A DNA stretch of 45,136 bases from Candidatus Gastranaerophilales bacterium (GTDB lineage: Bacteria > Cyanobacteriota > Vampirovibrionia > Gastranaerophilales > Gastranaerophilaceae). The translations under genes were made by a program, and so were the position numbers. How positions within the stretch are numbered: position 1 is the first letter of the stretch; every line of letters starts with the position of its first letter. The stretch covers positions 1 through 45,136 of the forward strand of contig CALUQL010000008.1 of the NCBI GenBank assembly GCA_944322895.1, written 5' to 3'. The notes beneath the pieces are model-generated. The model ran no database searches. It worked only from the letters and a program-made list of their open reading frames with translations, and was not told where the DNA came from. Positions 4,948 through 33,990 of the stretch are shown piece by piece.

Positions 4948-6309
4948 TTAAAAATCTCTAGGTTTTACATTATTTAACCAATTATCTTCAATTGTTTCAA
5001 GTGAAATACCTTTTGTTTCCGGAATAAAGAAATAAACAAAAATTATACATAAAAAAGAAACAAAACCAAACATCCAAAATGTTAAATCCCCGCCAATTCT
5101 GTTAAGAAGCACAGGAAAACTTGCAACAACAAAGAAATTAAAAGCAAAGTTTGAAAGAGTACAAATACTCATTGCTAAACCTCTTATTTGCAAGGGAAAA
5201 ACTTCAGATACTATTATCCAACCAATAGGTCCTAAACTGAATGCAAAACATACTATATATGAAACTAAGCTACCAACTGCAATCCATTTTAAGTTATCAC
5301 CCAGCATTTCTTCAAATCTAAATGCACAACCTAAAAATATTAAACTTAACATCACGCCTGTTAAACCTATATACAACAAGGGTTTTCTTCCGGCTCTATC
5401 TGTTAAAAATATAGCAACTATTGTCATTAAGAAATTCACAACTCCAATACCCGTTGTTGCATATATTGCATTAAGATTTGAGTCAAAACCTGCAATTTTA
5501 AATATCGTAGGAGCATAATATATTATTGTATTAATACCCGTACAAATTTGGGCAAACATTATACCGATACCTGCAACAAAAGGCATTATCATCCATTTCT
5601 TAAAATGGAATTTCTTCGCTGTTTTATATGGAGTTATTGTTGACTTTATCTCTTCTATTTCTTTATCAGCGTCTATATCAGGTTCTATTTTATTAAAAAC
5701 TTTCTTTGCTTCTTCATATTTACCTTTAGAAACAAGCCATCTTGGAGTATCACTTAAACATAACATGCCAATTAGAAGAATTATACCGGGCACAACACCG
5801 GCAAATAACATCCACCTCCAGTTATATACAGCATTGGCAAAAATAGCATTTATCATATAAGAAAATAAAATTCCTGCGGTTATTGCCCATTGATACAATG
5901 AAACTATTGTTCCTCTTAAATTCTTTGGTGATACCTCTGACAAATACAAGGGAACTACAAAATTAACTATACCAACAGCAAATCCTACTAAAATTCTTGA
6001 TAAGATTAATATATAAATATTTGGAGCTATAGCACAGAATATTGAACCTAAAATAAAAATTATTGCTGTTGCAATTATTATTTTCTTTCTTCCAAAAATA
6101 TCTGCTAAAATACCATTTATAGCAGCACCAACTACAGCACCAATCAATACTGAACTTACAAGTATACCTTGAATATAATCAGTTAAATCCCAGCTTTCAT
6201 TGATAAAAAGTAAAGCTCCTGAAATTACACCTGTATCATAACCGGATAATAATCCGCCTAAGGACGCTGTTATTGTGACTAAAAATAAAAATAAATATTT
6301 TATCTGCAT
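4948..6309 (-). CDS. MFS sugar porter (sugar/H+ symporter family)
   Basis: A 453-residue major facilitator protein with twelve predicted membrane segments and sugar-porter signatures: GGLLSGYDTGVISGAL in segment 1, ADIFGRKK in the 2-3 loop, DRAGRKP in the 8-9 loop, and PETKGISLE after segment 12. It resembles XylE, GalP and AraE proton-coupled sugar importers, but the sugar cannot be read from sequence. I chose the ATG at 6309 because TAGGAG lies seven bases upstream. An ATG at 6351 would add fourteen residues with no such site. No sugar-catabolic gene is adjacent. Confidence 0.88.
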   Translation of the reverse strand: MQIKYLFLFLVTITASLGGLLSGYDTGVISGALLFINESWDLTDYIQGILVSSVLIGAVVGAAINGILADIFGRKKIIIATAIIFILGSIFCAIAPNIYILILSRILVGFAVGIVNFVVPLYLSEVSPKNLRGTIVSLYQWAITAGILFSYMINAIFANAVYNWRWMLFAGVVPGIILLIGMLCLSDTPRWLVSKGKYEEAKKVFNKIEPDIDADKEIEEIKSTITPYKTAKKFHFKKWMIMPFVAGIGIMFAQICTGINTIIYYAPTIFKIAGFDSNLNAIYATTGIGVVNFLMTIVAIFLTDRAGRKPLLYIGLTGVMLSLIFLGCAFRFEEMLGDNLKWIAVGSLVSYIVCFAFSLGPIGWIIVSEVFPLQIRGLAMSICTLSNFAFNFFVVASFPVLLNRIGGDLTFWMFGFVSFLCIIFVYFFIPETKGISLETIEDNWLNNVKPRDF

Positions 6310-6521
6310 AATAACTCCTAATAGACCATTAAAACAATATTTTAATGCCACTTATTTTATATTTTATAACCTTTTTATTTATTACTATATAGAGTATATT
6401 ATTATATTTGACCTTTAGGTAATGACTAATCTAACTATTTTATATTAAAAATTCATCTAATATATTTCAAATGGGAAAATACGTTATGTTTTTCTATTTT
6501 TTGGAGATTCAAAATATAAAA

Positions 6522-24907: not shown

Positions 24908-27367
24908 TTAAACCAATATTATTGGTATATTATTTTCTTTTGCCGTTTGCTTAATCTGATTATCTTTAATTGAAGAATTAATAAAATCCTTTTTAGACAT
25001 TACGACAGCTTCTATTTTCGGTTGGAAAACAACAACTTCGTTAATATAATCACCCTTATTTTTTGCAGCAAGCATATATTGGTGCATATTATCCAATGCT
25101 CTTGCTGTTTCTTCTGCGGAGATTATACGTCCTGACTTTAATTTTATATCTTTTAAACGTTCTTTTTTATCAAATTTATCTATTAAATCAAAAAATTCAT
25201 AATATTCTTCATCTGTTAAATTTAATTCTTTCTTTATAAAATTCGGAAGTTCAGTTCTAAAGTTTTTATTTCGTTTTGCTTCTGATTCATTTTTTCCTTG
25301 CATAAAAATATAAGTTTCAAAAACATCACGGCCTCTTTGCCCACCGGTACCTCCTACTTTCTTTCCTGCAAGAGCGATATCTGAATTTGAAGAATGAAGA
25401 ATAACACTGACCCCTGAATTATAGTTTGTACTTAAACCATAATTAACATTAAGCAGACTGGAACTTAAACATATTTCTTTACTATCATCACAAATTGCTG
25501 ATAATTCGTTTAAAGTACCATGCGAGCTATGGCATAAAAAGTTTAAATCTTTTACTTTTGTACCTTGAGCAAAACCGAATTCAGATAAATCCTTATCAGG
25601 ATTCGAAAAATCAAGATATTTCACCCCTTCAGCATCTTGTGGGAATTTTGATTTATCTACAGGTAAATTATCAGCGAAGATTGGAATACCATTTTTTCTT
25701 ATAAATTCAATATTACTGTTAATTTCATCAACAGTAGATTCATTTGCGGCATAGGTAAAACCTGCTGATTCTGCATCGGCTTTTGCTATAATTTGTGCTA
25801 TTTTAAAATCATTAAGATATCTATATGAAGCAGCTAAATCTTTGGCATTTGTGCCATCTGTAACCCAATGGCTATTTATAATTATATTATATATTCTTTT
25901 CTTCTCATCAGAATTTATCGGAAGTTTTTTTACAAGCTCTTTTGCAAAATAAGCAGAAGGTTTTGCATGTCCTTCATCGACCATTTTCTGCCTTTTTGCT
26001 ATATCATGAAACATTACAGATAAAAATAATATTCTGAATTCTTCTTTTGATAAAGTTTTTGTTTCAGGATTTTTAAGGCATAGTTGTAAGTCTTCAAGGG
26101 TATGTTTATCAATAGAATCACCTCTATGTTGGATTTTTCCGACAACGGAAATAAATTCAGGAAATACACGGATAAATTCGTTAAGAACTTCTTCGGCTAC
26201 TTTATCGTCTTTATTCAGAACAAATTCATTATTTGCAACAAAGTCATTAACATAAACACGTGTTTTGTTTATTGCGCTTTGAACATTTGCATTAAATTCA
26301 GATATATCCGAATTATTTGGAACAGGGAATTTAACAATATCATTTTCATTATCTATTTTAAATTGAAAATAATCAAAGACCTGTTTTCTATCATTAGGGT
26401 TTAAGTCTTTAATTACTGAATTAAAGTCTTGAATAAAACTATCACGAGAATATTTTAAAGGTAAACCTTTTTCATATTTAGATAAATCTAAATTGCCTAT
26501 AGTATTCTGTAGATTTTCAAAACAAAAAGTATCACTTTCAACAAAATGAGAAAGAGAATCTTGACTACATTCGATAAACTTAACAGGCTGATTTTTCATC
26601 CTAGCTTTCAGTTCAGATTGTAGTGCCGCATTTGAACCACATCTTTTGATATCATTTATCAGGTTAAGTTTTAATAAAGGATCATTTTCATTTAAAGAAT
26701 TTATATAATTTTCACAAAAATTATGTTTAAAATAGCGTATAAAATTAACTTGATTTGCTGTTGTCATAAAATCAAACTCATCATATTCACGAATAGATTT
26801 TAGCCCAAAATAAATCGTTTCCCAAATATCTGATGGTGTTTGAGCTCCATTCCAAACCGAATCTTCTTTGTATTTTAATTTCGCCATCTCATGTAAGGAT
26901 TTTAACATTTCAGGAGTAAGTTCTTCTATTTCTAAAAATATTGCAATATTAGAAAGTCTTACACTTTGTACCGAAAGTTTTGCTAAATTATCCTGATAAT
27001 ATTTAAACTTTCCTTCAACATTTGTATAATCAAGACGAGAAAGTTTTTTTATCAACTCTTTATTCTTTGAAATATCTTGCAAAGAAAAACCTGAGTCTAA
27101 AAACATTTTTGTTAGTTTTATTTCATTTACTTTTTGCCTGGCTTTTTCATCAATATTTGATTGTGTTATAGCTTGTGAAACTTTTTTTATAATTTGGGGT
27201 GTTATTCCTAAATATCCACGTAAACAATCAGCAGTATTGGATGCAATATTGTGGAAATCGTTATTAAAAGACGTTTTTTGTTCGACAGTTTTCCTATAAT
27301 CTTTTCCCACATTATCTTTTGGATTTGTAACAATTATGTTTTTAGTTAAATTTTGAATAACTTGCAT
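24908..27367 (-). CDS. Large HD-domain hypothetical protein
   Basis: From the ATG at 27367 (GGTGGT upstream) the protein has 819 residues. The in-frame ATG at 27418 has no such site. The first 380 residues are helical and unrecognised. An HD metal-dependent phosphohydrolase core follows: His422 in DKHTLEDL, HD at 454-455 in MFHDIAK, His500 in INSHW, and Asp531 in KADAESAG. The last third has a different, glycine-containing part (KVGGTGGQRGRDVFETYIFM) and a charged C-terminus. HD proteins hydrolyse nucleotides, cyclic dinucleotides or phosphoesters; the substrate is unknown. Its size and flanking domains are atypical for dGTPase or RelA/SpoT proteins. Confidence 0.65.
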   Translation of the reverse strand: MQVIQNLTKNIIVTNPKDNVGKDYRKTVEQKTSFNNDFHNIASNTADCLRGYLGITPQIIKKVSQAITQSNIDEKARQKVNEIKLTKMFLDSGFSLQDISKNKELIKKLSRLDYTNVEGKFKYYQDNLAKLSVQSVRLSNIAIFLEIEELTPEMLKSLHEMAKLKYKEDSVWNGAQTPSDIWETIYFGLKSIREYDEFDFMTTANQVNFIRYFKHNFCENYINSLNENDPLLKLNLINDIKRCGSNAALQSELKARMKNQPVKFIECSQDSLSHFVESDTFCFENLQNTIGNLDLSKYEKGLPLKYSRDSFIQDFNSVIKDLNPNDRKQVFDYFQFKIDNENDIVKFPVPNNSDISEFNANVQSAINKTRVYVNDFVANNEFVLNKDDKVAEEVLNEFIRVFPEFISVVGKIQHRGDSIDKHTLEDLQLCLKNPETKTLSKEEFRILFLSVMFHDIAKRQKMVDEGHAKPSAYFAKELVKKLPINSDEKKRIYNIIINSHWVTDGTNAKDLAASYRYLNDFKIAQIIAKADAESAGFTYAANESTVDEINSNIEFIRKNGIPIFADNLPVDKSKFPQDAEGVKYLDFSNPDKDLSEFGFAQGTKVKDLNFLCHSSHGTLNELSAICDDSKEICLSSSLLNVNYGLSTNYNSGVSVILHSSNSDIALAGKKVGGTGGQRGRDVFETYIFMQGKNESEAKRNKNFRTELPNFIKKELNLTDEEYYEFFDLIDKFDKKERLKDIKLKSGRIISAEETARALDNMHQYMLAAKNKGDYINEVVVFQPKIEAVVMSKKDFINSSIKDNQIKQTAKENNIPIILV

Positions 27368-27669
27368 TATTACCACCATAGTTGCTTTTGTGATATATAA
27401 AAAATCTAAACTTCTCAAATTGCCTAAAACAAATGAATTGTTTATAAAAATAAATATATTTTACTGCTCTGTATAAATTTTGAAAATTTTTAAAAGAGTT
27501 ATAAAAATACATTGTTGATTTTAAAAACTAATATTTAAAAGAATTATAATTAATTTGCTTCAAATTTTTTTCTAACTCAATAAATTCACCTTGTAAGTTA
27601 TTAGAATTTTTCTTTAGTATATCAATTATGTTTTCTATATCAGTTTTATAATATAAAATAAGGGCTATA
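27368..27669. other. Intergenic region between the HD-domain gene and the XRE gene
   Basis: 302 very AT-rich bases between divergent genes, presumably with both promoters, though I see no -35/-10 pair good enough to mark. On the minus strand 27531-27686 is open for 52 codons, encoding a hydrophobic stretch (KLIIALILYY) then a helical one, but without ATG, GTG or TTG. It partly overlaps the XRE gene, so I do not call it a gene. Confidence 0.5.
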
Positions 27670-27888
27670 ATGAGTTTTGAAAATTTTTATAAAAATTTAG
27701 GGAAAAGAATAAAACTGCTAAGAGAGGAAAGACATCTTACGCAAGAGAAACTTGCTGAATTAGCAGGCATAAGTTTAGATTATTTAGGTAAGATAGAGAT
27801 AAGCATAAACAGACCCGGGTTAATTACATTATTGAAAATAGCAAAAGCCCTTGATATCTCTATGGAAGAATTATTTAAAACATTATAA
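27670..27888 (+). CDS. XRE/Cro-C1 family DNA-binding regulator
   Basis: A 72-residue protein that is almost only a helix-turn-helix domain (HTH_3). KRIKLLREERHLTQEKLAEL forms helices 1-2, AGISLDYLGKIE the recognition helix, and LLKIAKALDISMEELF helices 4-5. AAGGG six bases before the ATG fits a ribosome binding site. It ends 14 bases before the first CRISPR repeat and points into the array. It could regulate its own promoter, the array or the cas operon, or be an unrelated small regulator. There is no effector domain or toxin partner. Confidence 0.85.
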   Translation: MSFENFYKNLGKRIKLLREERHLTQEKLAELAGISLDYLGKIEISINRPGLITLLKIAKALDISMEELFKTL

Positions 27889-27902: not shown

Positions 27903-28400
27903 GTTTTGATTTTCTCTTAATTTAAAATATGTTATAATCAACTGATAAAGACAGTATATGGAGCATTTGTTTTGATTTTCTCTTAATTTAAAATATGTTA
28001 TAATAACAAGCAGAAGAACAAACATCGCAATATAGTTTTGATTTTCTCTTAATTTAAAATATGTTATAATCAAGAAATGGAAGATTGGGAGTTTAAAGTA
28101 GTTTTGATTTTCTCTTAATTTAAAATATGTTATAATTATCAGTTGAGCAAAAAGCAGAATTATTAAGTTTTGATTTTCTCTTAATTTAAAATATGTTATA
28201 ATAGGAATTGTGTACTGTTTTCTTGACATGTTGTTTTGATTTTCTCTTAATTTAAAATATGTTATAATTTGACATAATCGCCGTTTGTTTCAGAACATGT
28301 TTTGATTTTCTCTTAATTTAAAATATGTTATAATCTAGTGAGCTGTTTGAAATCTTCATAAATTGTTTTGATTTTCTCTTAATTTAAAATATGTTATAAT
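27903..28400 (+). CRISPR. Type II-C CRISPR array, 8 repeats and 7 spacers
   Basis: Eight identical 36-base repeats begin at 27903, 27969, 28035, 28101, 28167, 28233, 28299 and 28365. They start GTTTTGATTTTCTCTTAATT and end ATGTTATAAT. All seven spacers are exactly 30 bases and differ from one another. The plus strand is the crRNA sense: the repeat starts with GTTTT and the tracrRNA anti-repeat on the same strand is its complement. Every repeat ends in TGTTATAAT, a perfect extended -10, so transcription should start about seven bases into each spacer and leave about 24 guide bases. The array runs opposite to the cas genes. No long leader is visible: 14 bases separate it from the XRE gene. Confidence 0.98.
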
Positions 28401-28433
28401 AGGATATACAAAATAGATAAAATAATATATAAT
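28392..28433 (+). promoter_or_regulatory. tracrRNA promoter elements
   Basis: The last repeat ends in TGTTATAAT (28392-28400), which would start an RNA near 28407. A second perfect TATAAT at 28428-28433 would start one near 28440, at the first bases of the anti-repeat. Neither has a strong -35. Either or both could produce the tracrRNA. Confidence 0.5.
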
Positions 28434-28435
28434 AA

Positions 28436-28595
28436 CAAAGTAATATACTTTAAATTAAGAGACCAATCATAATTGACAGGAGAATAGTCGTTCCCTCTGT
28501 ATGGTAAATACACGTTATGCCTCATTCTCCAAACCTCTAAAACTTGTGACATTAGTATTTTAACTTAAAATCACCAAAATGTCATCTGTTTTTCT
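28436..28595 (+). ncRNA. tracrRNA for the II-C Cas9
   Basis: The anti-repeat occupies about 28446-28473. UUUAAAUUAAGAGA (28449-28462) pairs without a break with UCUCUUAAUUUAAA of the repeat. A small CCA/UU bulge follows, and AUCAUAAU pairs with GUUUUGAU of the repeat with one mismatch and one G-U. Downstream, GGAGAAT (28479-28485) and ATTCTCC (28524-28530) close a long stem with a small GTAT/ATAC hairpin inside. The last hairpin, TGACATT/AATGTCA (28547-28584), and a T-run end the RNA. The length is about 120-155 nt depending on the start used. It pairs with crRNA and is needed for Cas9 loading. Confidence 0.85.
28547..28594. terminator. Terminator shared by tracrRNA and the cas operon
   Basis: TGACATT (28547-28553) pairs with AATGTCA (28578-28584) around an inner ATTTT/AAAAT stem. 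On the plus strand a run of five T at 28590-28594 follows. On the minus strand TTTT follows, so it can also end cas2 transcription. The stem overlaps the last codons of cas2. Confidence 0.55.
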
Positions 28596-28918
28596 GTGTT
28601 TTCGCCCATTTGTTTTCTATATTTTGAAGAATTATAGTTTGCTTTTTCTATACATACAGAATTAGTCCATTGCCTATCTGTTAAATAAAAAATATTTATC
28701 TGACCTGTTGCAGGTGCAAGTGTTTTAACAAGTTTTATATATTGTTCTGTTTTATCATAAGTTACACAAGAACGCACATAAATTGAGTTTTGTAGCATAA
28801 AATAACCAAGTTTTAACAAATCTTTTCTAAAATTGTTTGCTTGTTTCCTTTCTTCATCATCAACAACAGGCAAATCGAAACATACAAATAACCAACCCAT
28901 ACGGTATTTACTCTTCAT
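28571..28918 (-). CDS. cas2: CRISPR-associated endonuclease Cas2
   Basis: The 115-residue protein has the ferredoxin-like Cas2 start MGWLFVCFDLPV with the conserved Asp15. RKDLLKLGYFMLQNSIYVR follows as helix 1 and strand 2, then GQINIFYLTDRQW. It bridges Cas1 dimers in the spacer-integration complex. The length and the FDLPV form are typical of type II loci. Its start overlaps the cas1 stop by 11 bases, and its stop is TGA. It converges on the tracrRNA. Confidence 0.97.
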   Translation of the reverse strand: MKSKYRMGWLFVCFDLPVVDDEERKQANNFRKDLLKLGYFMLQNSIYVRSCVTYDKTEQYIKLVKTLAPATGQINIFYLTDRQWTNSVCIEKANYNSSKYRKQMGENTEKQMTFW

Positions 28919-29858
28919 ATTCTCTATTCTTTTGCGTATCTTTGTGTAAATATTGTTCTTTTATATTTGGAAGAAAAATTTCGGAACAATCAAATAATGA
29001 AAATGAATTTGCTATTTCTTCTATATAAATATCAATTATATCTATAATTTTATAGCTATAATTTTTATGTTTAATTCTATAATCTTTTAAACAGTTAGGA
29101 ATAAATTTTATCCATTCTTGTATCTCTTCGTTTTCAAATTCAATAGAATAATTTTTTGAAAAATAATATAAGTATAAATCTATAAAAGCTCTAAATGGTT
29201 CTGTTAGATCATAAACTAAAGGTGTTGTTTTGTAATTACTTGTATGGTGTATTCCTAAATTAGGAAGTAGACCATGTACTAAAATTGAACGATAAATAAT
29301 TGTTTTTAATATTGCATATCCATAATTAAGACAAGCATTCTCAAAACTTTGGGCATTTTGATGTTCTCTTTTCATTGGTTCACTTAAATAGAAAAAGTAG
29401 TCTTGCCAGTATTTTTTTGCAATATTGGCTTCATTCATTAATGGTTTATTTATTAGATTATACAAATTATGTGTATCACAACCCATAAAATCTAATACCA
29501 TTGCTTGATTGAATGCTTTTTGCTTAACAATTTTTTTCCAAAGTTTTGTTGTAAATTCTTCATTTTGGCTAATTTGATTTTTAAAAACTTTTGTTTTAAC
29601 TATTCTAGCCAAAGGAACACTCCAGCCGATTGGTTGGAATGTTCTATCACAATGTTGTATAACAACATTATTTTTTAATAATGCTGCTATTGCGTTATTA
29701 GAAAATGAAACAGCAGGTGTACAAACTATAATTGCCTTTATATCATTAATTGGAAGTTTATATATTTCATTAGTTTTTTTTATTTCACAGAATAAAATAC
29801 CTTTATCTATTGAAATATAACTGCCTTGTTTTGTAATATGCAGAATATGGTAGCTCAT
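28908..29858 (-). CDS. cas1: CRISPR-associated integrase Cas1 (type II)
   Basis: The 316-residue Cas1 has a beta-sandwich N-terminus (ITKQGSYISIDKGILFCEI) and a helical catalytic part. Its metal ligands are the Glu of MNEANIAKKYW, the His of NLGIHHTS and the acidic pair of VYDLTEPFRAFID. It integrates new spacers into the array with Cas2. It starts 23 bases after the cas9 stop. The ribosome binding site is weak, so translation is probably coupled. All catalytic residues are kept, so adaptation should still work. Confidence 0.97.
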   Translation of the reverse strand: MSYHILHITKQGSYISIDKGILFCEIKKTNEIYKLPINDIKAIIVCTPAVSFSNNAIAALLKNNVVIQHCDRTFQPIGWSVPLARIVKTKVFKNQISQNEEFTTKLWKKIVKQKAFNQAMVLDFMGCDTHNLYNLINKPLMNEANIAKKYWQDYFFYLSEPMKREHQNAQSFENACLNYGYAILKTIIYRSILVHGLLPNLGIHHTSNYKTTPLVYDLTEPFRAFIDLYLYYFSKNYSIEFENEEIQEWIKFIPNCLKDYRIKHKNYSYKIIDIIDIYIEEIANSFSLFDCSEIFLPNIKEQYLHKDTQKNREYEE

Positions 29859-29881: not shown

Positions 29882-32800
29882 CTAAAAATCAACGATTTTT
29901 CTGAATTGTGCTTCTGTTAAATACTTAGTACTTGAAAGAATCTTTTTACCATTATTATCTTCAATTTCTACAGGACCATTACTCCATATTGAATTAAGCT
30001 TATATTTACCTTTTTCATAGAATAAAGAACCTGCTTTGAAATTATTGGGGATATAAATTAAACAGCCCGAAGAGAACATTTCTCCGCCATTGTATAATTT
30101 ACAACCCATTTCCATAAGATTTTCTCTTACTTCTTTAGTCGATTTATTTGCATAAACAGGCATAACCTTGATATTACCTTTAGCATCATAATAAAGAATT
30201 TGCCCTTTATGTCCTTTTGAACGCTTAAATTGACCTTTTGTTCCTTTTGTTCCAAAATCAACAAAAGAATCAAAACGCTCACGACCATTTAAATCATTCG
30301 TCAATTGTGCATTGCAATCAATTTTTGTTCGTACTTTCTTTATTTTAGTCTTTTTCGTCGGATGAATATATGTTGATAACATTTTTAACCATTCATCTTC
30401 AGATAAATTATCATTTAACTTGCTTATAAGATTTTCTCGAATAATCGGGTCTAATATCTTCTCTATCTTTTTTTTATCTTTTTTAATTTCTATTATTTCT
30501 ATTCTTTCTGTAAGACAATAATTACCATTAAACATTCTTTTTCCGTAATATGTTTCTTTTGGTCTTAGTTCTGATTTTAATGGTTTCCTATGTGTATAAG
30601 GATATGGCATTAACTCCATGATTTTTTCTTCTACTTGAGGACGATTAAATCCTTTTATTGAATATCTTCTTGTTTCTTCATCCAATTTATATTCACGTGC
30701 AAAACTTATACAGATTGCATCTAATGCATGATGTTTTGGGTTTGTTCTGTTTTTCTTTTCATCATCACCCAAAAGCGAATTTAAACTGTATGTTCTTCTT
30801 ATTTTTGCTGTAGTTGACCCATTTTCAACGTATACATGACGTTCATCCCCTTTTGTTTGCATGCCCCAACCGCAAATATAATGGGTTATTGCACTTGCTA
30901 CTTTCGCAACTTGTGCGGTTTCTGCTAAACCATTATAACTATCTATTAACTTTGCACATTTATCTGGTGGAAGTACAAGCAAGTCTGCTTTTTTCTTACC
31001 TAATCTTGGTCTTAAATTCGTTATTCTTGTATTAAACTCTTCCCATCGTGATTTATTTGTATATAACCACTCATATGGAGTTCTGCCTGCTTTATCTTGA
31101 TTCTCTTTCTTATAGCATACAACTTTATTATATAAGGCGTCATTACCACCTATACTTCTTGGATAAATATGATCTATCTCACATAGTGGATATTCAGCCG
31201 GTGAAATTCTATCTCCGCTATATATACATTTAAAATCTTGCATTTTAGCTAATTTATGCATTAAAAAATATTGTTTTGGATTACAATTGTGTTCTTCCAG
31301 TTCTTTTATTAATTGTTCGTTTTCCTTTTCCTGACTTTTCATATATTTTGCTGTATCATTTGCTTTAATACTTCCGAATAATGAATTATCAGCCCCATCT
31401 CGCACAAATTCAAAGATAACTTCATCAGGTTTCCCATTATCATATATTAATGAATTTAAGAGATTTTTAAATATTTGTAATCTGTTTCTTACAACAGGAT
31501 TTGTAATATTACCTATTAAAATATCACTTTTTATTTCAGCATTTTTCGACTCTTGTGCTAACTCATCACGATTATCACCAATAAAAAGATTATTCCAATC
31601 ACCAATTTTGGATAACATTGTTTGAATTTCTTCTTTTGTTATTCCATTTTTAGTACCTTCTTTATCTGCATATTTAGAAGCATCAATTTCATGTGGATGT
31701 AATCCTGACGTTATAATGTCTATCATTATTTGACAAGCTCGTCTGCAAAAGCTTGAACGTCCTGAAATATTTGCCTTTAAAGTTTCAACTTCATTTTTTT
31801 TGAATTTTTGACCAACTACTTTTTCTATATCTGTTTTAGGTATTGAAAATGTTGCTGTTGACTTTATTCCTTTCCTCAAGTCTGTTAGATTTTTAGCCCA
31901 CTCTACAACCTTTTTGTCATATATTTCTTTTATTTCGTAAGGTGCTAATCTTCTTTGTTCTAATGTAGTATCATCTATAAATTTAATATTCTTTAACTGC
32001 ATTAAAAGAACTAAAGAAATATGCTCGATACTATCAGCACTACACACATTTCTTTTAGGAAGTAGTCTGCATTTTGCAATTACTCTATTATTAAATCTTG
32101 GAATTTTTTGACCTAATACACCTTGCCAGTCTTTTTCTGTGCCGCGGTATTGTATCCACTCAGGATTATGATATGATGCATAAGCTTCTCTATAATCTCC
32201 ATATAGAAATTCATCTATGGTAATATCTTGTATTTGAGGTATTTGTTTTTTTGCTTCTTCCCATAATTTTGAAAGTTCTTTAACCACTAATTCTCGAGGA
32301 GTTACTCTTCCTGCTTTTCTTACTTTTTCAGGATTTAAACCAATACATCTTTTTAATTCATTAGGATTATTTTCACTCCATAAACCAAGGAGTAAAGCAT
32401 CATAATAACAAGGATATTTATATTCATCTGATAGAATAAGTTCAATACCATCAATGCAAGAATATTTTTTGATTGCTTCTTCATTTTCTTTATCGTCATC
32501 TGATGTAGCCCAAGCAATATTATTATCATAACCTCTTCTTTGAATTGCATTGTGCAATGCTTTATAAATTTGCCATTCTTCTAATTTACGACCTTGAATC
32601 AGTGCAATACGTAATAATGTAGAATTATATATAGTATTATCATTTTTTTGAGCAAATTCTTTTTTAAACTTTTCATCAGTTTCTTCTAATGGTTTTAAAC
32701 CTCTGCTAATCCATAAATTTTTAAACCAAAGTTCTCTTGCCCTATGTGCTTGTATTGTTCTATAAGTTCTTCTTCTTGCTCTATTATCTACAACTGAAGC

Positions 32801-32908
32801 GTGGTCTTTATCTATAATTATTGAACCAATATCTTTAATTTCAAAATCTTCTCTTACGCAATAACCTATACTTGCTTTCCCCATATCAAATGCAAAAACT
32901 TTTTTCAT
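29882..32908 (-). CDS. cas9: Cas9, compact type II-C RNA-guided nuclease
   Basis: From the ATG at 32908 the protein has 1008 residues, within the small II-C range. RuvC-I is VFAFDMGKASIGY with Asp8. The arginine-rich bridge helix NRARRRTYRTIQAHRAR spans about 42-58. RuvC-II is VIFEFVRD with Glu500. HNH is CEIDHIYPRS with catalytic His580 (Asp579, Asn603). RuvC-III is HHALDA with His727 and Asp730. Both nuclease centres are therefore intact. The C-terminal 200 residues should form the PAM-interacting domain. AAAGGGAT lies five bases before this ATG. The in-frame start at 32986 adds 26 residues lying over the promoter and is rejected. With only cas1 and cas2 alongside, this is type II-C. The PAM is unknown. 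Confidence 0.97.
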   Translation of the reverse strand: MKKVFAFDMGKASIGYCVREDFEIKDIGSIIIDKDHASVVDNRARRRTYRTIQAHRARELWFKNLWISRGLKPLEETDEKFKKEFAQKNDNTIYNSTLLRIALIQGRKLEEWQIYKALHNAIQRRGYDNNIAWATSDDDKENEEAIKKYSCIDGIELILSDEYKYPCYYDALLLGLWSENNPNELKRCIGLNPEKVRKAGRVTPRELVVKELSKLWEEAKKQIPQIQDITIDEFLYGDYREAYASYHNPEWIQYRGTEKDWQGVLGQKIPRFNNRVIAKCRLLPKRNVCSADSIEHISLVLLMQLKNIKFIDDTTLEQRRLAPYEIKEIYDKKVVEWAKNLTDLRKGIKSTATFSIPKTDIEKVVGQKFKKNEVETLKANISGRSSFCRRACQIMIDIITSGLHPHEIDASKYADKEGTKNGITKEEIQTMLSKIGDWNNLFIGDNRDELAQESKNAEIKSDILIGNITNPVVRNRLQIFKNLLNSLIYDNGKPDEVIFEFVRDGADNSLFGSIKANDTAKYMKSQEKENEQLIKELEEHNCNPKQYFLMHKLAKMQDFKCIYSGDRISPAEYPLCEIDHIYPRSIGGNDALYNKVVCYKKENQDKAGRTPYEWLYTNKSRWEEFNTRITNLRPRLGKKKADLLVLPPDKCAKLIDSYNGLAETAQVAKVASAITHYICGWGMQTKGDERHVYVENGSTTAKIRRTYSLNSLLGDDEKKNRTNPKHHALDAICISFAREYKLDEETRRYSIKGFNRPQVEEKIMELMPYPYTHRKPLKSELRPKETYYGKRMFNGNYCLTERIEIIEIKKDKKKIEKILDPIIRENLISKLNDNLSEDEWLKMLSTYIHPTKKTKIKKVRTKIDCNAQLTNDLNGRERFDSFVDFGTKGTKGQFKRSKGHKGQILYYDAKGNIKVMPVYANKSTKEVRENLMEMGCKLYNGGEMFSSGCLIYIPNNFKAGSLFYEKGKYKLNSIWSNGPVEIEDNNGKKILSSTKYLTEAQFRKIVDF

Positions 32909-32970: not shown

Positions 32971-32986
32971 ACTTAATCTCGACCAA

Positions 32987-33015
32987 TTGCCAAAAATGTA
33001 CAGATATTCTAAAAT
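32987..33015 (+). promoter_or_regulatory. Promoter of the DppB-like gene, probably leaderless
   Basis: TTGCCA, 17 bases, then TAAAAT, both 5 of 6. The -10 ends six bases before the ATG at 33022, so the predicted first transcribed base is the A of the start codon. No Shine-Dalgarno sequence is present. Confidence 0.55.
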
Positions 33016-33021
33016 TAGCGT

Positions 33022-33990
33022 ATGAATTTAGCAGGCTATATAATTAAAAGAATTTTTCAAACGATACCGTTATTATTTTTGGTATCCATAATAAGTTTTT
33101 TTCTTATTAGACTTGCTCCTGTTGACCCTTTAGCCGAGCTTAGGTTAAATCCTTCTATTACTCAAGAAACTTTAGACTACGAAGTCCAAAGATTAGGGTT
33201 AGATAAGCCTGTTATTGTTCAATATGGGTTATGGCTCAAAAGTTTTGTTAAAGGTGATATGGGCTATTGCACCACAGGTGAAAGAGTTGCCGATAAGTTA
33301 ATGGAAAGAATTCCTAACACTCTTTTACTAACGGGGTTTGTAATTTTCTTTACCTGGGCTGTTGGTATACCTTTGGGGATTGTCGCTGCTTTGCATTGGC
33401 GAAAACCTATCGATAGGCTGCTTACTATTTTATCTAGTATTGGTATGGCAATACCTTCATTTTTCTTTGCCCTTTTGTTGCTTATTTTTGCAGTAAAAAC
33501 AGGCTGGTTTCCTACGGGCGGGCTTACAAGTTATAATCATTCGGAAATGACAATTTGGGGCAAAATAGTTGATGTTTTACATCATTTAGTTTTACCTGTT
33601 GTTGTTTTATTTACTATTTCTTTATCAGGTTTACAAAGGCAGATGAGAGGTAATCTGCTTGATGTTTTGCAATCTGATTATGTTAAATTTGCCCGTGCAA
33701 AAGGTTTAAGTGAAACGAAAGTTATATATAAACATGCATTGCGTAATGCAATAAACCCGATGGTTACATTATTAGGTTTTGAGTTTGCTTCTTTATTAAG
33801 CGGTGCCGCTTTAACCGAGTATGTTTTTCAATACCCCGGGTTAGGTCGTTTAATTCTTGAAGCTGTTATGAAATCTGATATAAATCTTGTTATGGCTTCA
33901 TTAATGATTGGTACAATAATGCTTGTTTTAGGTAATTTGATTGCCGATATTCTTTTAAAACTTGTTGACCCCAGAGTGGAGGCTGTTTAA
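33022..33990 (+). CDS. ABC transporter permease, DppB/OppB family
   Basis: A 322-residue permease with six membrane segments. It opens with IKRIFQTIPLLFLVSIISFF, has the signature RLAPVDPLAELR after segment 1, and the EAA loop DYVKFARAKGLSETKVIYKH near 228-247 that docks on the ATPase. It forms half of a peptide or nickel-type import channel with the next gene, which overlaps by one base (TAATG). No binding protein or ATPase is nearby, so these must be encoded elsewhere or shared. The substrate cannot be told. Confidence 0.93.
   Translation: MNLAGYIIKRIFQTIPLLFLVSIISFFLIRLAPVDPLAELRLNPSITQETLDYEVQRLGLDKPVIVQYGLWLKSFVKGDMGYCTTGERVADKLMERIPNTLLLTGFVIFFTWAVGIPLGIVAALHWRKPIDRLLTILSSIGMAIPSFFFALLLLIFAVKTGWFPTGGLTSYNHSEMTIWGKIVDVLHHLVLPVVVLFTISLSGLQRQMRGNLLDVLQSDYVKFARAKGLSETKVIYKHALRNAINPMVTLLGFEFASLLSGAALTEYVFQYPGLGRLILEAVMKSDINLVMASLMIGTIMLVLGNLIADILLKLVDPRVEAV

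Follow-up and report, generated by a model that had tools for sequence, protein, structure and literature searches.

What kind of CRISPR-Cas9 system is encoded in the window analysed here (the whole 45,136-nucleotide stretch of contig CALUQL010000008.1, assembly GCA_944322895.1, from a Candidatus Gastranaerophilales bacterium), and what sets its Cas9 apart from that of its closest relatives? The kind of system is already known. The notable parts are a natural exchange, between otherwise near-identical proteins, of the domain that reads the protospacer-adjacent motif (PAM), and the short PAM inferred for the family. Judged from sequence, we hold it highly probable that the window encodes a type II CRISPR-Cas immune system, complete with its three genes and marked by a PAM-domain exchange, which operates as proposed below.

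The answer to the second part of the question lies at the end of the protein. Over residues 1-770 the window Cas9 is 99% identical to that of a sister genome (G036, locus L042), with 7 differences in residues 1-778, and over the last ~230 residues, which make up the WED/PAM-interacting region, identity is ~55%. In the DNA this gives a divergent block at ~29.88-30.58 kb (45-73% identity) between flanks that are 88-100% identical, and in an AlphaFold2 model its edge is located in a linker predicted with low confidence (residues 780-785), which joins RuvC-III to the beta-rich WED/PAM-interacting domain. The two parts of the protein also have different neighbours. In a tree of the N-terminal part the window Cas9 pairs with a sister (L004) at 100/100; in the C-terminal tree its partner, at 100/97, is L015, the module grouping with L015 and L053 of another genus, and an approximately unbiased (AU) test of the C-terminus rejects the pairing with L004 (p=0.0106). 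The C-terminal block of the window type is independently present in a further genome, G010. As read from these alignments and trees, the C-terminus of the window Cas9 has recently been exchanged by recombination with a Cas9 relative from another genus. The window/G010 lineage would be the likely recipient, because the C-terminus of the sister fits its N-terminal relatives while identity of that of the window is lower than expected. PAM-interacting domains do evolve faster, and a fit over 561 pairs shows that C-terminal identity is generally below N-terminal identity, so that the divergence might be ascribed to fast evolution of this domain under selection, with no recombination at all; yet the window/G036 pair is a -4.4 sd outlier in that very fit, the edges of the block are sharp inside near-identical DNA, and a C-terminus that joins another genus, with the sister grouping rejected, makes this explanation highly improbable. 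A parallel pattern is known from Neisseria meningitidis, where the PAM-interacting domains of Nme1 and Nme2 Cas9 are 52% identical and the rest 98% (Gasiunas 2020, PMC7606464), much as the window and G036 proteins compare (55% and 99%). Unlike the Neisseria pair, the window Cas9 belongs to a different clade, the nearest relative of its C-terminus is traceable to another genus, and an effect on the PAM is a prediction.

What, then, would such a domain read? The original prediction proposed matching spacers to phage and plasmid sequences to deduce the PAM, and this worked, giving NRRV for the family and AACC and TGAC for the window itself (n=2). For the family, protospacers with <=2 mismatches were pooled from the arrays of relatives, making a set of 24 in which two, L047.1 and L047.2, represent a single site shifted by one base; those with 3-5 mismatches (G010, L053 and others) were considered too unreliable to count. 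On their 3' side a purine stands at +2 in 22/24 and at +3 in 21/24, and the base at +4 is never T (24/24). With a background of 0.196, NRRV fits 19/24 (p=5e-10), a p-value that is optimistic, because the motif was derived from the same data; a better control is that no other offset shows anything comparable, and the 5' side of the 24 protospacers gave no PAM signal. Judged by these flanks, the PAM of the family, NRRV, appears unusually short and permissive. Two spacers of the window have perfect matches (Table 1), spacer 6 in a prophage gene adjoining the terminase and spacer 7 in a prophage early region, with a further match of spacer 7 (25/30, flank TGGC) in G317; both perfectly matched prophages lie in other genera of the same family. 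It is tempting to go one step further and suppose that the exchanged module changes the PAM, the window/G010 Cas9 reading C at +4 and the parental form keeping the family NRRV. We put this forward as a doubtful conjecture: C stands at +4 in both perfect protospacers and in two weak matches (TGGC, ATGC), and two perfect ones are too few for a preference shift.

Some facts weigh against the overall reading. The sisters keep a ~94% identical island at residues 883-950 (90% in DNA), and the exchange may for that reason have involved two tracts rather than one, or one with a donor conserved there. NRRV is pooled over differing PAM domains, and the window's own AACC misfits the purine at +3. Targets were found for only 2/7 window spacers; exact scans of IMG/VR with 23-nt stretches from the PAM-proximal side of window spacers 1, 2, 3, 5, 6 and 7 and of one G010 spacer gave no match. 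Among phage GenBank records, a query holding part of the relatives' spacers gave only chance-level Flavobacterium phage matches (E=0.8). As a separate observation, the G244 prophage (L167) is targeted from >=2 species, by window spacer 6 and by L090 spacers 16 and 18; the host of this prophage seems to have a Cas9 array that belongs to the same family.

Table 1. Coordinates of the CRISPR-Cas9 features in the window.
Feature	Position	Strand	Description
cas9	29882..32908	-	1008 aa from ATG (32908..29882); RuvC-I D8, RuvC-II E500, HNH H580/N603, RuvC-III H727/D730
Exchanged Cas9 C-terminal module (WED/PAM-interacting), residues 779-1008	29882..30574	-	evidence: identity drop and trees
cas1	28908..29858	-	type II (NMENI-like), 316 aa
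cas2	28571..28918	-	type II, 115 aa
CRISPR array	27903-28400	+	8 identical 36-nt repeats GTTTTGATTTTCTCTTAATTTAAAATATGTTATAAT and 7 spacers, each 30 nt long
Spacer 6	28269..28298	+	30/30 prophage match in G244:C2; PAM AACC
Spacer 7	28335..28364	+	30/30 prophage match in G285:C3; PAM TGAC
Probable tracrRNA promoter	28405..28433	+	TATACA-17-TATAAT; first box inside AGGATATACAAA
tracrRNA	~28441-28594	+	anti-repeat 28441 to ~28476, then hairpin GGAGAAT..ATTCTCC, then terminator-like hairpin GACATT..AATGTC and T-run

The rest of the locus has everything expected of a type II system. cas9 is followed directly by cas1 and cas2, in an operon conserved in relatives, with the array and the trans-activating CRISPR RNA (tracrRNA) beyond them on the opposite strand; the matching parts announced by the original prediction are all present. 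The anti-repeat and tracrRNA are kept in 25 relatives, the repeat:anti-repeat duplex amounts to -24 kcal/mol, and the hairpin after the anti-repeat shows compensatory changes among relatives; the terminator-like hairpin with its T-run overlaps the 3' end of cas2. An Rfam scan of the window gave no match at gathering scores. Systems of subtype II-C have promoter-like extended -10 boxes in their repeats, 36-nt repeats and 30-nt spacers, and the same holds in the window, where every repeat terminates in an extended -10 (TGTTATAAT) that may, by analogy, act as an in-repeat promoter. The motif AGGATATACAAA is kept downstream of the last repeat in Gastranaerophilales relatives, and the call of a tracrRNA promoter rests on this conservation, because a scan with a generic promoter pattern gave counts not above those in shuffled DNA. 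A comparison meant to show at which end the array grows turned up no spacer common to the window and its relatives and, with all repeats identical, favoured neither end.

Put together, these parts suggest how the system would work. Spacers would be inserted by Cas1-Cas2 with Cas9; precursor CRISPR RNAs (pre-crRNAs) would begin at the extended -10 boxes within the repeats and pair with the tracrRNA; RNase III, whose gene is present in the genome, would mature or trim them; and Cas9 with crRNA and tracrRNA would cut, via RuvC and HNH, prophage-type DNA beside a short 3' PAM (NRRV in the family), a step suggested by the intact catalytic residues and the prophage matches. The array itself would be spared, since its own flank, GTTT, fails NRRV. 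In the window lineage the WED/PAM-interacting C-terminus would then have been replaced, the rest of cas9, cas1, cas2, the tracrRNA and the repeats staying unchanged, and the likely benefit would be a changed PAM preference or evasion of phage counter-measures. One might instead see a decaying or inactive locus in an array that is short (7 spacers) and in the lack of a neighbouring ~840-bp segment found in two relatives. Genes that are intact, with catalytic residues kept and repeats identical, spacers not common to relatives, two of them matching prophages, and the absence from the window of the broken cas9 fragments met in relatives (e.g. G021) leave hardly any room for decay; the system is probably a working one. 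Relatives have remnants of cas9, short or broken, at L060 6678-7169 (G021), in G032:C28 and in G161:C4.

The protein itself is a type II Cas9: a single effector, with a split RuvC, an inserted HNH and its catalytic residues kept. The original prediction described a compact, catalytically complete enzyme of 1008 residues, and the six catalytic residues are indeed where it placed them, and invariant in a 39-sequence alignment; the motif forms that it called unusual turn out to be standard for the clade. The ATG is the likely start, because homologues start with MKKVFAFD, an in-frame TTG lying 26 codons upstream. Pfam gave a match to HNH_4, with RuvC_III below threshold, and the general Csn1 model of NCBIfam scored 253 bits, against 615-761 for II-C proteins. 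The AlphaFold2 model (mean pLDDT 81.8, pTM 0.52) resembles Cas9 structures generally (Foldseek E 1e-28; VIA Z 16-19); as all Cas9s tie, whatever their subtype, comparison of this predicted structure does not tell the subtypes apart.

Which subtype, then? In a tree of 56 Cas9s, six of them canonical II-C proteins of the same class, the window Cas9 falls in a large clade that spans Gastranaerophilales, Vampirovibrio, Caenarcaniphilales, Margulisbacteria, Elusimicrobia, Verrucomicrobia and Lentisphaerae, on a branch separate from the six (support 100). The proposal had been to read novelty from a deep branch among II-C proteins. The clade does stand apart from II-C, but because it is widespread, with members in several phyla and an existing NCBIfam model, this sign has to be given up. 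Both a canonical II-C identity and a lone deep branch are out. In the literature searched we found no description of a Gastranaerophilales, Melainabacteria or Elusimicrobium Cas9, and no member of the clade there or among solved structures.

The gene content is that of II-C: cas9-cas1-cas2 only, with no further gene, hence no csn2 (the mark of II-A), among the contiguous cas genes and array, and no match to cas4 (the mark of II-B, and also of II-D) in the locus or the 93%-complete draft genome, when the control search matched in 8 genomes. The phylogeny is not, the window Cas9 lying outside the canonical II-C clade. The NCBIfam model NF049971, 'type II CRISPR RNA-guided endonuclease Cas9d', matches it over its full length (4-1000) with 1098.7 bits, far beyond chance and far above the cut-off of 375; clade members score 581-1223 bits against ~142-151 for canonical II-C. 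The model also captures members from Akkermansia, Elusimicrobia and Termititenax; with this family the window Cas9 shares size class, full-length match and cas9-cas1-cas2 neighbours, at 33-35% identity to the Akkermansia and Elusimicrobia members. This score is what speaks for a system of subtype II-D (Cas9d, formerly II-C2). II-D is defined in part by a shared cas1-cas2-cas4 adaptation module (Makarova 2025, PMC12669027), and a locus without cas4 lies outside this definition. Furthermore, the zinc ribbons reported for Cas9d and Cas9c2, whose CxxC motifs sit in REC and near RuvC-II (Aliaga Goltsman 2022, PMC9755519), have no counterpart in the 1008 residues of the window Cas9, and the structures 9lgi (titled type II-D) and 9k32 align with it by sequence over HNH only. 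We consider II-D possible but rather unlikely, and do not file the system there, because it has neither cas4 nor zinc ribbons: its subtype stands between a II-C-like locus and a protein that NCBI names Cas9d. Such a label on such a locus indicates that the boundary between II-C and II-D is unsettled.

NmeCas9, GeoCas9 and CjCas9, the canonical compact II-C enzymes, have the domain order and three-gene operon of the window but sit across the branch mentioned above. Published compact Cas9d proteins, of 600-970 aa, contain zinc ribbons and work with a large guide RNA (PMC9755519, PMC11706934). MG34-1 (9lgi) and NbaCas9 (9k32) are compact and have a short PAM, and share the overall Cas9 fold (VIA Z 17-18, tied with all Cas9s); unlike them, the window Cas9 has 1008 aa and no CxxC motif.

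As for the host, the window makes up contig C8 of a draft genome of 2.15 Mb. The original assignment to a probable basal-cyanobacterial gut lineage was right, because the nearest named genome, G010, is that of Candidatus Avigastranaerophilus faecigallinarum (DVJT01000160.1; Gastranaerophilaceae, Melainabacteria), whose Cas9 is >99% identical: the host is a chicken-gut relative of cyanobacteria, of the genus Ca. Avigastranaerophilus. Within the clade, the Cas9 of Termititenax, a termite-gut Margulisbacterium (L088 6001-9009), nests among Gastranaerophilales ones (support 100), with a similar repeat and tracrRNA; it is likely a case of transfer between gut phyla.

Around the locus, an open reading frame (ORF) of 72 aa with a helix-turn-helix look (27670-27888, +), which runs in the direction of the array, stops 14 bases short of the first repeat, and beyond it lies an 836-aa ORF with no Pfam match (24908-27418, -). 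On the other side, between cas9 and an oppB-like permease gene, is a single copy of a 45-bp motif (32980-33024). G010 and G036 have two copies flanking ~840 bp (L038 6521-7359; L042 ~5452-6378), with a zeta-toxin-like P-loop kinase gene, stop-interrupted in G010, and a 66-aa ORF; the window's position looks like an empty or deleted site.

The locus is a genuine, intact CRISPR-Cas9 system from an under-studied lineage, and compact Cas9s with short PAMs are wanted for genome editing. As the window/G010 and G036 proteins differ essentially in the PAM-reading domain only, a pairwise comparison would show the role of this domain and whether PAM specificity is moved between Cas9s in nature. Should a preference for C at +4 prove true, this would be a natural in situ transplant of a PAM domain between genera, in an uncharacterised clade of compact, short-PAM Cas9s.
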